42,540 bases of DNA, from positions 1 to 42,540 of the forward strand of contig NZ_KE384553.1 of the NCBI RefSeq assembly GCF_000426685.1, written 5' to 3'. A model generated the notes under the pieces. It was given only the letters and a program-made list of their open reading frames with translations. It had not been told where the DNA came from and made no database searches. The stretch comes from Solimonas flava DSM 18980. GTDB taxonomy: Bacteria; Pseudomonadota; Gammaproteobacteria; Nevskiales; Nevskiaceae. Numbering within the stretch: the first letter of the stretch is position 1; every line of letters starts with the position of its first letter. Of the stretch, positions 31,788 to 36,593 are shown in pieces. A program made the position numbers and the translations under genes.

Positions 31788-33365
31788 TCAGTGCCGGAAG
31801 TGGCGGATGCCGGTGAAGACCATCGCCATGCCGGCTTCGTCGGCGGCGGCGATCACTTCGGCGTCGCGCATCGAGCCGCCCGGCTGGATCACGGCGGTGA
31901 TGCCGGCGCGCGCGGCGGCGTCGATGCCGTCGCGGAACGGGAAGAACGCGTCGGACGCCATCACCGAGCCCGGCACTTCGAGCTTCTCGTCGGCGGCCTT
32001 GATGCCGGCGATCTTGGCCGAGTAGACGCGGCTCATCTGGCCGGCGCCGACGCCGATCGTCATGCGCTCGCGGGCGTAGACGATGGCGTTCGACTTCACG
32101 AACTTGGCGACCTTGTACGCGAAGATCAGATCGTGCAGCTCGGCCTCGGTCGGCTCGCGCTTGCTCACGACCTTGAGCTGGCCGAGCGTGACGATCAGAT
32201 CGTCGCGATCCTGCACCAGCAGGCCGCCGGACACGCGCTTGTAGTCGAGCGCCGGCGCGCGCTGCGCCGGGAACTCGCCGCATTCGAGCAGGCGCACGTT
32301 CTGCTTGGCGGCGACCGCCTGCCTGGCGGCCTCGCTGACGCGCGGCGCGACGATGACCTCGACGAACTGGCGCTCGACGATCAGCTTCGCGGTCTCGCCG
32401 TCGAGCTCGCGGTTGAAGGCGATGATGCCGCCGAAGGCCGAGGTCGGATCGGTACGGAAGGCGCGCTCGTAGGCCTCGCGGATGCCGGACTCGTTGACGG
32501 CGACGCCGCAGGGATTGGCGTGCTTGACGATCACGCAGGCCGGCTTGGTGAAGCTCTTCACGCATTCGAGCGCGGCGTCGGCGTCGGCGATGTTGTTGTA
32601 GCTGAGTTCCTTGCCCTGCAGCTGACGGGCGGCGCTGATCGTGCCGGACTCGGCGTTGCGCTCGCGGTAGAAGGCCGCGCGCTGGTGCGGATTCTCGCCG
32701 TAGCGCATGTCCTGCAGCTTGTCGAACTGCAGGCCGAATACCGGCGGGAACGCATCGCGCGCGCCGTCGTCGTGCAGGCTCGACAGATAAGCCGACACCG
32801 CGCCGTCGTAGCGCGCGGTCAGCGCGTAGGTCTTGACCGCGAGGCGGTAGCGCGTCGCCAGCGTGGTGCCGCCGGCGTCGATTTCGGCGAGCACCGCGGC
32901 ATAGTCGGCCGGATCGGTCAGTACCGCGACCCAGGCGTGGTTCTTCGCCGCCGCGCGCAGCATCGCCGGGCCGCCGATGTCGATGTTCTCGATGGCGTCC
33001 TCGCGCGTGCAGTCCGGCTTGGCGACCGTCGCCTCGAACGGATAGAGGTTGACGACCAGAAGGTCGATCGGCGCGATGCCGTGCTGCGCCATCACCTCGG
33101 CGTCGACGTCGCGGCGGCCGAGCAGGCCGCCGTGGATCTTCGGATGCAGCGTCTTGACGCGGCCGTCCATGATTTCCGGAAAGCCGGTGTGCGCCGACAC
33201 TTCGACGGCGTCGAGACCGGCCTCGCGCAGCAGCTTGTAGGTGCCGCCGGTCGACAGCAGCTCGACGCCGCGCTGTGCAAGTTCGCGCGCGAACTCGACG
33301 ATGCCGGCCTTGTCGGAAACGGAAAGCAGGGCGCGGCGCACCGGCGCGCGGGAGGTGATGGTCAT
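31788..33365 (-). CDS. purH: Bifunctional AICAR formyltransferase/IMP cyclohydrolase
   Basis: Performs the last two steps of IMP synthesis: formylation of AICAR with 10-formyl-tetrahydrofolate and ring closure. The 525-residue protein has the N-terminal cyclohydrolase (MGS-like) domain with [18 protein letters not shown] near residue 13, [13 protein letters not shown] near 38 and [13 protein letters not shown] near 68, and the C-terminal transformylase with the catalytic KHANPCGVA motif near 273. Length is normal for the family. It lies 56 bp after fis, so the two are probably cotranscribed. With guaB and guaA nearby, the window carries much of the IMP-to-GMP branch. Confidence 0.97.
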
Positions 33366-33421: not shown

Positions 33422-33688
33422 TCAGTTCAGCGCGTCAGGCTTGATCTTGTGCTGCTTGAGTTTCTTGCGCAGCGTCGCGCGGTTGAGGCCGAGCATTTCG
33501 GCGGCGCGCGACTGGTTGCCGTGGCAGTAGCGCAGCGTGGCTTTGAGCAGCGGCGGCTCGACCTGATCGAGGAACAGGTCGTACAGGTTCTTCGGCATGT
33601 GGCCGTTCAGCGTTCGGAAGAAGTCGTCCAGGCTGTCGGAGACGGAATGACCGAGCGGCTTGATGTCCGAGGACCGGAGCGAAGACAT
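33422..33688 (-). CDS. fis: DNA-binding protein Fis
   Basis: An 88-residue nucleoid-associated protein and growth-phase regulator. The C-terminal helix-turn-helix is highly conserved: [20 protein letters not shown] followed by [17 protein letters not shown] (about residues 47-83). The N-terminal beta-arm region precedes it. The start at 33688 is chosen because [12 protein letters not shown] is followed by family-like sequence; the longer frame (to 33751) adds a stretch that overlaps the probable promoter. The prmA-fis-purH order differs from the enterobacterial dusB-fis arrangement and matches other gammaproteobacteria. Confidence 0.94.
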
Positions 33689-33809: not shown

Positions 33810-35120
33810 TCAGCCCAGCGTCTCGTCGATCAGCGTCTGCCAGACCGCGTCCGGCTGCCAGACCGCGTGCAGGTCGGCCAGCGCCACGTCGCGCGCTTCG
33901 CCGCGGCGCAGCACGCGATACAGGTACACGAACACCGAGGCGCGCAGGTTCAGTGCGCAGTGCACCAGCAGGTGTTGTCCGGCGTAGCGGTCCATCAGCG
34001 CGCAGAACTGCTCGACGTGCTCGCGCGTCGGCGCCTCCCACGGAATCGGCAGCGCCGCGTACTGCACGCCGAGCGCCTGCCAGCGCGCGGCTTCATCGGG
34101 CAGATAGTTCGGCGAGGTCGGCGCCGCCAGATTGATGACGGCCTCGATGCCGGCCTGCTGGAGCGTCGCGAACTGCTCGGGCCACGGCTGCCCGGAAGTC
34201 AGCAGGCGGGCGTCGATGCGGTGGCGCCGGATCAGTGCCGGCATGCGGCACTGCGCGGCCAGCCGCGTCCAGCCGTCCTTGCTCAGATCGGCGTCGAAAT
34301 CGAACCAGGCGTCATAGGCCGCGCGCACGTCCTCGGCCTGGCGGTCGAGCAGGCCGGCGAGCACCAGGTGGCCGCCGCGCTTGATCGAACTGGCCAGCGT
34401 CGGCGCCAGCGCGATCAGCGGATTGGCGAGGATGTTGGCGACGATGATGTCGGCCGGCAGCGGCACGAAGGCGTCGGCCGGCAGCGTGACGATGCGGTCG
34501 GCGACGCCGTTGGCGGCGGCGTTGTCGCGCGTCGCCAGCAGTGCCTGCGGGTCGATGTCGACGCAGATCGCGCGTTCGGCGCCGAGCAGCAGGGCGGCGA
34601 TCGCCAGCACGCCGGAGCCGCAACCGAAGTCGAGCACGGTCTTGCCGGCGAGGTCGTAGGCGGCGAGCCACTGCAGGCACAGCGCCGTCGTCGGGTGCGT
34701 GCCGGTGCCGAACGCCAGGCCCGGGTCGAGGCGCAGGATCACCGCGTCGGGCTGCGTGACCTCGCCGACCTTCTCGTGCGGCACGACCCAGAGCTTGTCG
34801 CCGAACGGCAGCGGCGGGCAGTCCTTGAGCCAGACGCGGACCCAGTCCTGATCCTCGATCAGCTCGGTCTCGAAGCGCGCCTCGGCGCCGTCCGGCAGCA
34901 ACTCGCGCAGGCTGGCCTGCACCGGCGCCAGGTCCACGCCCTCGGCGAACAGGCCCAGCGTCACCGTCTGCGCCCACAGCGGCGTCTCGCCGGGCGCCGG
35001 TTCCAGCACCGGATCATCGACGGCGTCGATGAAGCTGACCGCCGCGGCGTCGTGCGCCAGCAGGATCTCGTCGGCGAATTCGGGGTGGCGCGTGTGCACG
35101 CGCAGTTGCAGCCAGGCCAT
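33810..35120 (-). CDS. prmA: Ribosomal protein L11 methyltransferase fused to a PTP-like phosphatase domain
   Basis: A 436-residue protein. Residues 1-290 are PrmA, which trimethylates ribosomal protein L11 with S-adenosylmethionine: FGTGTHPTTALCLQWL near 137, SAM motif VLDFGCGSGVLAIAALLLGA (162-181) and NILANPL (229-235), ending near the usual WTRL (284-287). Instead of a stop the frame continues at M293 (34244) into a ~144-residue domain with LLTSGQPWPEQFATLQQAGI (307-324 region), EAVINLA and a phosphatase-like loop HCALNLRAS (His387, Cys388, Arg393). Cys and Arg are four residues apart, not five as in classic PTPs. The start at 35120 gives the family MAWLQLRV. The fusion is unusual; the domain's activity is unproven. 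Confidence 0.88.
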   Translation of the reverse strand: MAWLQLRVHTRHPEFADEILLAHDAAAVSFIDAVDDPVLEPAPGETPLWAQTVTLGLFAEGVDLAPVQASLRELLPDGAEARFETELIEDQDWVRVWLKDCPPLPFGDKLWVVPHEKVGEVTQPDAVILRLDPGLAFGTGTHPTTALCLQWLAAYDLAGKTVLDFGCGSGVLAIAALLLGAERAICVDIDPQALLATRDNAAANGVADRIVTLPADAFVPLPADIIVANILANPLIALAPTLASSIKRGGHLVLAGLLDRQAEDVRAAYDAWFDFDADLSKDGWTRLAAQCRMPALIRRHRIDARLLTSGQPWPEQFATLQQAGIEAVINLAAPTSPNYLPDEAARWQALGVQYAALPIPWEAPTREHVEQFCALMDRYAGQHLLVHCALNLRASVFVYLYRVLRRGEARDVALADLHAVWQPDAVWQTLIDETLG

Positions 35121-35201: not shown

Positions 35202-36593
35202 TTAGTGCGGATCTTTCGCTGACGCCGGTGTCACCGAGGTGCCGGTGACGACGGCGTCGGCGCTGCCGCGCGCGAGCAGCAGGTGCAGCGCCGCGCCGCG
35301 CTCGGTACGCGCCGCGTCGGTCAGCGCGCGGCCGTCGGCGTCGAGCGCGATCGCGTAACCGCGTTCGAGCACGGCGCGCGGGTTCAGGCTGGCCAGCACC
35401 GATTCGGCGCGTTCGAGGCGCGCGCGCGCCGCCGCCGCCTGCAGGCGCAGGGTCTCGTGCGCGCGCGCCTGCAGGCGTTCGAGGCGGTGGCGTTCGATGG
35501 CCAGGCGCCGCGCTGGCGCATGCGCGCGCAGCGTCGCCTCGCGATGTTCGAGACGCTGCGCGAGGCGCGCGAGCAGGCGCGTCTCGGCGTGCTGCAGGCG
35601 CTCGCGCAGTTCCCGCAGGCGGGCGCCGCGTTCGCGCAGGCGCCGGCCCGGATGCTGGGCCTGCAGGCGCCGCTGCTGTTCATCGAGACGTTGCGCGGCC
35701 TGCTGCAGGCGGCGCTCGGCGGCCAGCGTCACGCGGTTCTCGTGGCTGCGCAGCGCGGCGAGCCAGTCGGCGATGTCCGGCGCCGCGCGTTCGGCGGCGG
35801 CGGTCGGCGTCGGCGCGCGCAGGTCGGCGGCGAAGTCGGCGATCGTCACATCGACCTCGTGGCCGACGCCGCTGATCACCGGCACCGCGCAGGCGCGGAT
35901 CGCGCGCGCGACGCGCTCGTCGTTGAAGGCCCAGAGATCCTCGATCGAGCCGCCGCCGCGCGCCAGCAGGATCACCTCGACGGCCGGCGCGCGCCGCGGC
36001 AGTTCGGCGAGCGCCCGAACGATCGCTGGCGGCGCCTCGGCGCCCTGCACCGGCACCGGATACAGATAGACCGGTGCCAGCGGATAGCGCCGCGCCAGCG
36101 TCGTCAGCATGTCGTGGATCGCCGCGCCGCTCGCCGAGGTGACGATGCCGATCGCGCGCGGCCGTTTCGGCAGCTCGCGCTTGAGGTGCTCGTCGAACAG
36201 GCCCTCGGACGCCAGCCGGCGCTTGAGCTCCTCGAACGCGCGCAGCAGGGCGCCGGTGCCGGCCGGCTCCATGTGCTCGCAGATCAGCTGCAGATCGCCG
36301 CGCGCCGTGTAGAACGACAGCTGCGCGCGCAGCAGCACGGCGTCGCCGTCCTTCGGCGGCGGCCGCACGTGCAGATTGGCGTTGCGGAACATCGCGCAGC
36401 GCAGCTGGGCGCGCGCGTCCTTGAGCGTGAAGTACCAGTGGCCGGATGCCGGCCTCGACAGATTGGAGATCTCGCCCTGCACCCAGACCCGCGGCAGCGC
36501 GTCCTCGATCAGGGCGCGCAGCACCTCGGCGAGTTCGGAAACCTGGTAGATCGTGCGAGCGCCGGCGCGCTCGGGTGCGGGGAGTCTCGGCAT
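35202..36593 (-). CDS. xseA: Exodeoxyribonuclease VII large subunit
   Basis: A 463-residue nuclease subunit that with XseB degrades single-stranded DNA in both directions. The N-terminal OB-fold shows VWVQGEISNLSRPASGHWYF near residue 37, and the catalytic domain begins with RAIGIVTSASGAAIHD near 145 and holds LLARGGGSIEDLWAFNDERV near 210 and VISGVGHEVDVTIADFAADL near 239. The C-terminal third is a long Arg/Leu/Gln-rich coiled coil (about 275-420) that binds XseB in the known enzyme. xseB is not in the window. Divergent from guaB, as in other gammaproteobacteria. Confidence 0.96.
   Translation of the reverse strand: MPRLPAPERAGARTIYQVSELAEVLRALIEDALPRVWVQGEISNLSRPASGHWYFTLKDARAQLRCAMFRNANLHVRPPPKDGDAVLLRAQLSFYTARGDLQLICEHMEPAGTGALLRAFEELKRRLASEGLFDEHLKRELPKRPRAIGIVTSASGAAIHDMLTTLARRYPLAPVYLYPVPVQGAEAPPAIVRALAELPRRAPAVEVILLARGGGSIEDLWAFNDERVARAIRACAVPVISGVGHEVDVTIADFAADLRAPTPTAAAERAAPDIADWLAALRSHENRVTLAAERRLQQAAQRLDEQQRRLQAQHPGRRLRERGARLRELRERLQHAETRLLARLAQRLEHREATLRAHAPARRLAIERHRLERLQARAHETLRLQAAAARARLERAESVLASLNPRAVLERGYAIALDADGRALTDAARTERGAALHLLLARGSADAVVTGTSVTPASAKDPH

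Follow-up and report, generated by a model that had tools for sequence, protein, structure and literature searches.

The question raised by this locus is whether the gene for PrmA, the ribosomal protein L11 methyltransferase, has been durably joined to a small phosphatase-like domain, and what such a domain might be doing there. In the window (the whole 42,540-nt stretch of Solimonas flava DSM 18980 DNA analyzed here), a minus-strand frame opens with an ATG at 35120 and continues for 436 residues, with no internal stop, to a stop codon at 33810-33812. Its parts are:

33810..35120, minus strand: fused gene, PrmA plus C-terminal PTP-like CX4R domain, 436 aa (uninterrupted frame, profile matches, relatives)
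34254..35120, minus strand: PrmA part, residues 1-289 (PF06325, TIGR00406; alignment A2 of 14 fused proteins)
34242..34253, minus strand: junction Q290-C291-R292-M293 (Cys here in 15 of 15 fused proteins)
33813..34244, minus strand: C-terminal PTP-like domain, residues 293-436 (profile matches and alignment)
34092..34094, minus strand: Glu343, candidate E-loop glutamate (same residue throughout the 46-row alignment)
33942..33962, minus strand: P-loop HCALNLR, with His387, Cys388, and Arg393 (CX4R; alignment, column counts)

A sequence-only reading of this DNA had proposed that the PrmA frame runs without a stop into a second domain, and profile searches bear this out, with PF06325 and PF22741 both matching within the single 436-residue frame. 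PF06325 covers residues 3-290 (E 8.7e-83, 278.7 bits against a cut-off of 22), and TIGR00406, the PrmA model, matches full-length (231.4 bits; curated cut-off 183.15). The GTGTHP, GCGSG, and NILA motifs, which we take to be those of the SAM site, are retained. By these matches this part appears to be an ordinary, complete PrmA, predicted to trimethylate L11. The window protein covers the whole length of the PrmA family, but continues at the C-terminus for about 147 residues more, an addition absent from 42 of the 57 PrmAs found in the organism's family.

The best Pfam match of the C-terminal domain is PF22741 (PTP-NADK; E 1.1e-7 over residues 302-416, with 31.9 bits where the gathering score is 27). 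Tc-R-P (PF22785) reaches 28 bits, against 27, with the domain alone, and 25.2 bits within the whole protein. Among 46 aligned relatives, PF22741 matches 45 and Tc-R-P 38. NAD kinase is absent among the 17 Pfam families matching the 436-residue protein up to E 0.1, and Pfam finds no toxin-system part in it; Tc-R-P takes its name from polymorphic toxin systems, and this match is the only hint of one. The fusion is a new architecture built from two known families; no description of it was found in the titles and abstract openings of literature on PrmA fusions, Solimonas phosphatases, or L11 methyltransferase-phosphatase fusions.

A joined frame might in principle reflect an assembly error or, as the sequence-only reading had suggested, the recent loss of a stop codon between neighboring genes. 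With the whole 436-residue protein as query, PrmA was found in 57 of 58 genomes of the organism's family (the other, G035, has no match at E 1e-12). In 15 of these, belonging to four genera (7 of 11 genomes in g1, 4 of 4 in g8, 2 of 4 in g9, and 2 of 2 in g12), the frame runs on into the C-terminal domain; in the remaining 42, four of them from the source organism's own genus, a stop follows within a few residues of the usual PrmA end. The joined frame is therefore not peculiar to this assembly: it recurs in 14 further family genomes, at identities down to 58%. All 15 fused proteins have 27 residues between GWTR and GQP, and 77 between GQP and the HC of the P-loop. Joined frames in 14 other genomes, with constant spacing, exclude a local error in sequencing for all practical purposes. 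The stand-alone start Met, kept in 11 of the 15, could be read as a trace of recent stop loss, but fits an old joining equally well; with frame and spacing constant across 15 genomes of four genera, both an assembly artefact and a recent stop loss can be set aside as practically excluded, and the suggestion of recent loss fails also on the constraint seen in the C-terminal domain (below). Many genomes of Solimonas, and some from related organisms, encode a PrmA with a conserved phosphatase-like C-terminal domain, and the join is real and old.

In one of the 15 genomes (G037) a contig end removes the PrmA N-terminus, and the junction is spanned; this sequence is outside alignment A2, which has 14 rows. 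Another, G041, has two equally scoring fused copies on a single contig (C1:53555-54856 and 257087-258388), a duplication or an assembly matter (its listed contamination is 9%).

Outside the family, no fusion was found in the order's 27 remaining genomes, or in samples of 368 further genomes from the class and 397 from the phylum. These two samples overlap and were searched at E 1e-28, with at most 7 candidates scored per genome, so that very divergent fusions could be missed. No second, unfused copy of the C-terminal domain was found at E 1e-12 in any genome with a PrmA fusion. Likewise, none of the 42 loci with unfused prmA has a recognizable remnant of the domain in up to 700 bases downstream, in six frames (best E 6.6). 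The remnant profile recovers the 15 fused tails at E 2.3e-56 or better, which is a check of the method rather than an independent control, since these tails are themselves rows of the profile. The lack of remnants would follow from loss without trace as well as from the domain never having been there, and the domain is accordingly either evolutionarily dispensable in those 42 of 57 genomes or was never gained there.

The second domain had also been described as complete and as beginning at the Met at 34244, and alignment agrees: this Met coincides with the start of stand-alone copies, so that the fusion probably arose by attachment of a formerly independent gene at its first codon. The junction codon is ATG in 11 of 15 fused genes, and GTG, ATT, CTG, and ACG in the other four. 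Six SD-like strings were sought in the 36 bases upstream of the inner Met, and none lies nearer than 29 bases. Given the replacement of the inner Met and the lack of a nearby SD-like string, a single fused protein that includes the C-terminal domain is the most likely product. Separate translation from the inner Met is disfavored on the same grounds, three of the genes having ATT, CTG, or ACG at this position; in the other 12 the codon (ATG or GTG) would still be usable as a start.

The Cys at the junction (Cys291, 34248-34250 in the window) is kept in all 15 fused proteins; 4 of the 42 unfused PrmA tails have a Cys within their last 10 residues. Cys291 is a possible redox partner of Cys388.

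The surroundings of the fused gene are:

35202..36593, minus strand: xseA, upstream (model match)
33422..33676, minus strand: fis, next gene downstream (tested stretch, start codon not settled; PRK01905 and PRK00430 are the best matches, both below their cut-offs)
31788..33365, minus strand: purH (model match)

The order is thus xseA, prmA-PTP, fis, purH. In all 14 of the longer loci available (8 fused, 6 unfused), prmA is followed by fis and then purH, which indicates that the prmA locus itself stayed in place; xseA is present in 8 of the same 14.

In a tree of 46 C-terminal domains, the 15 linked to PrmA form one clade (support 100/97), and 15 linked to NUDIX proteins form a separate group (84/90). 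In the PrmA tree, on the other hand, the fused proteins do not group together as a clade (AU p 4.4e-9), and at least five changes between the fused and unfused states are needed, at least two of them forced by well-supported branches. One clade of C-terminal domains on PrmA parts that do not form one points to a single joining, followed by losses or by lateral spread. On these trees the joining probably happened once, and its later history is equally compatible with several losses and with horizontal spread of the joined end.

For eight pairs of fused genes, hand-picked from 105 possible pairs, dN/dS (Nei-Gojobori) was 0.20-0.48 in the C-terminal domain and 0.09-0.28 in the PrmA part, with the former above the latter in 8 of 8. 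The C-terminal domain is under purifying selection, and is less constrained than PrmA. This bears on the possibility of a neutral passenger, a domain joined by accident which is idle as far as PrmA is concerned, or is an independent enzyme merely made together with it. The looser constraint in all eight pairs, the absence of the domain from 42 of 57 genomes, and the lack of a noticeable difference in an E. coli prmA mutant, as related in a review (PMC3347575), are in keeping with such a passenger. However, dN/dS values below 0.5, invariant active-site residues, and a junction length unchanged across four genera speak against it, and we consider this explanation very unlikely.

What, then, might the domain do? 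The active-site comparison used an alignment (A1) of 46 rows, drawn from the copies most similar to the window C-terminal domain, so its invariance counts are biased toward close relatives. Outside it are L045 (a fragment), L048, L134, the distant paralogues L002 and L003, L033-L036 (the same places as L004, L005, L007, and L008), and a number of further matches. His387, Cys388, Arg393, and Glu343 occur without exception in the 46 rows. The four-residue distance between Cys388 and Arg393 noted earlier for the window protein is correct and is likewise found in all 46, departing from the classic CX5R pattern. The description of the P-loop as shortened therefore stands as to its length, but not as to its being odd: it is usual for this type of domain, and the Neisseria meningitidis phosphatase NMA1982 has a loop of the same length. 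Kinship with stand-alone HCAxNxR proteins was also correctly proposed. The residue at Cys+3 is Asn in 45 of 46 and Gly in one, and the window domain has the HCxxNxR loop of 3GXG-type domains.

The general-acid position is less regular. The nearest candidate for the WPD acid, by NMA1982 spacing, is residue 362, where 32 of 46 relatives have an acidic side chain; an acid from elsewhere is possible. Among the 15 fused proteins it is acidic in 8 and non-acidic in 7. Because this position is not conserved, a phosphatase, a sulfurtransferase, and a binding module are all viable readings. By analogy with E53 of NMA1982, Glu343 may be the glutamate of an E-loop and hold the Arg of the P-loop in place. 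The Solimonas marina copy (G001; L007/L053) has a changed P-loop, HCALGKRAA, and a changed preceding strand (VEIPW), as if it were drifting or of changed function.

The closest solved relative is Shewanella putrefaciens 3GXG/3GXH (profile E 5.1e-38), whose loop, HCLANYRAS, is of the same type as that of the window domain, and whose Glu, Pro, and Phe positions agree with it in the alignment. It differs in being a 157-residue chain without PrmA, named a putative phosphatase, “DUF442,” by its depositors. A paper on TpbA calls this DUF442 structure (3GXG) phosphate-bound (PMC4409338). NMA1982 (2F46) is matched more weakly (E 1.5e-4), together with several dual-specificity phosphatases. It has a PTP fold and a CX4R loop like the window domain, and its published description presents it as a proven if slow PTP-type phosphatase despite that loop, with no detectable activity in the C95S and R100A mutants (PMC10716126). 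It differs in two respects. Its Asp71 was proposed and tested as general acid/base, while the equivalent position is not conserved in window-type domains; and the Gly of its loop, given by its authors as 100% conserved in its bacterial homologs (PMC10716126), is Asn in the window domain.

The reading we favor, at about an even chance of being right, is that the C-terminal domain is a phosphatase, hydrolyzing phosphomonoesters, which together with PrmA would make a two-enzyme protein; both the catalytic activity of this copy and its assignment as a phosphatase are inferred, as would be any link to L11. The N-terminal part would trimethylate L11 ahead of its incorporation into the ribosome. The C-terminal domain would be a small PTP fold of the 3GXG, NMA1982, and DUF442 kind, with a short loop (CX4R). 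Its chemistry is most likely that of a cysteine, with Cys388 attacking as the nucleophile, a phosphate-like oxyanion bound by Arg393 and the amides of the loop, and Arg393 in turn fixed by Glu343. The fusion could place the phosphatase near the substrate of PrmA, or could simply yield both activities from one protein. A phosphatase is favored by the phosphate-bound relative, the dual-specificity phosphatase matches, and the invariant Glu; the variable acid at residue 362, the replacement of the NMA1982 loop Gly by Asn, and the absence of a shared phosphate theme among the scanned neighbors of stand-alone copies speak against it. Also counting against the two-enzyme reading are the 42 of 57 family genomes that lack the fusion and the 12 of 15 junction codons usable as a start.

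As a second possibility, the domain could be a sulfurtransferase, with Cys388 carrying a persulfide. Rhodanese loops are one residue shorter than CX5R, and a general acid is not needed there, so the variable residue 362 would be no obstacle. The DUF442 domain of Blh (PF04273, NF040641) likewise combines a PTP fold with fusion to a second enzyme, although its partner is an ETHE1 dioxygenase domain rather than PrmA, and it is described as a transferase that takes sulfur from thiosulfate, with cyanide or GSH as the acceptor (PMC5823870). With CX4R in the phosphatase NMA1982 and DUF442 in the sulfurtransferase Blh, loop length does not decide the reaction. The Blh model NF040641 does match residues 301-405 of the window protein (E 3.6e-7), but at 29 bits against a cut-off of 625; PF04273 gives no match with the window domain at E 0.01, although 23 of the 46 relatives do match it. 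Further arguments against this role are the phosphate-bound description of the closest solved relative, and the replacement in the window (CALNLR) of the Gly found at Cys+3 both in NMA1982 and in the family's DUF442-like stretches. A separate DUF442-like stretch with CRTGMRS also occurs in the source genome, next to a match to the rest of the Blh model, and scanned neighbors of stand-alone copies have no sulfur-oxidation theme. We regard a sulfurtransferase as a minority possibility.

The DUF442-like stretch in question (L159, G000:C9:68668-69057) lies in an open frame of 572 codons and adjoins a stretch matching Blh model positions 138-423. The motif pattern for such stretches occurs in 7 of 10 loci, L003 included. 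The same genome encodes further CX4R paralogues, L002 (HCASSNR) and L003 (HCASGNR).

As a third possibility, the domain could be a binding or regulatory module, its P-loop binding a phosphorylated ligand or protein and so steering PrmA, with little or no turnover. The authors of the NMA1982 study raise a binding or regulatory role, in a passage on their own slow enzyme (PMC10716126), and both the non-acidic residue 362 of 7 of the 15 fused proteins and the altered S. marina loop would suit such a module. One argument against it is the invariance of His387, Cys388, Arg393, and Glu343 in all 46 rows, as these are not clearly required for binding alone. We regard this role too as a minority possibility, about as probable as a sulfurtransferase.

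A further-reaching idea would be that the domain acts on something encountered by PrmA, for instance L11 or another ribosome-assembly factor, so that methylation and dephosphorylation (or the reading of a signal given by phosphorylation or oxidation) meet at the same step, perhaps with a Cys291-Cys388 redox switch acting on the methyltransferase. This coupling is a long shot. The coupled regulation suggested in the sequence-only reading is neither supported nor contradicted by these results. PrmA acts on free L11, before ribosome assembly, and what L11 methylation is for has yet to be established even though PrmA is conserved, according to a review (PMC3347575). A partner domain kept for so long offers a handle on L11 methylation, by way of finding what the partner acts on.

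PrmA is also an additional partner for this type of CX4R domain, which in sister genera (g3 and g11) is carried by a NUDIX protein. These copies are C-terminal fusions too, with domains 42-50% identical to that of the window, but the partner is a Zn-ribbon NUDIX protein, and the domains group apart from the PrmA-linked clade. Four of the NUDIX-linked set were tested by Pfam, and 15 were grouped by their upstream residues; loci of this kind are L012:478-1911, L019:1489-2520, L031:1471-2601, and L027:889-1944 (G047, G051, G033, and G031).

Around stand-alone copies, a scan of 20 proteins at 12 of 16 loci found no common theme, phosphate and sulfur oxidation included, save for two arrangements, each seen in two loci. 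In the first (L148:3882-7085 and L151:2942-6027, from two families of the class), the stand-alone copy directly follows a GT2 glycosyltransferase gene and is itself followed by a gene for a 271-272 aa protein, with a PNP_UDP_1 match in L151 and none in L148, and then by a spore-photoproduct-lyase-like gene, making a small conserved cluster. In the second (L154:5173-6120 and L155:2355-3302, from g14, a genus in the same order), the gene immediately ahead of the stand-alone domain encodes an alpha/beta hydrolase.
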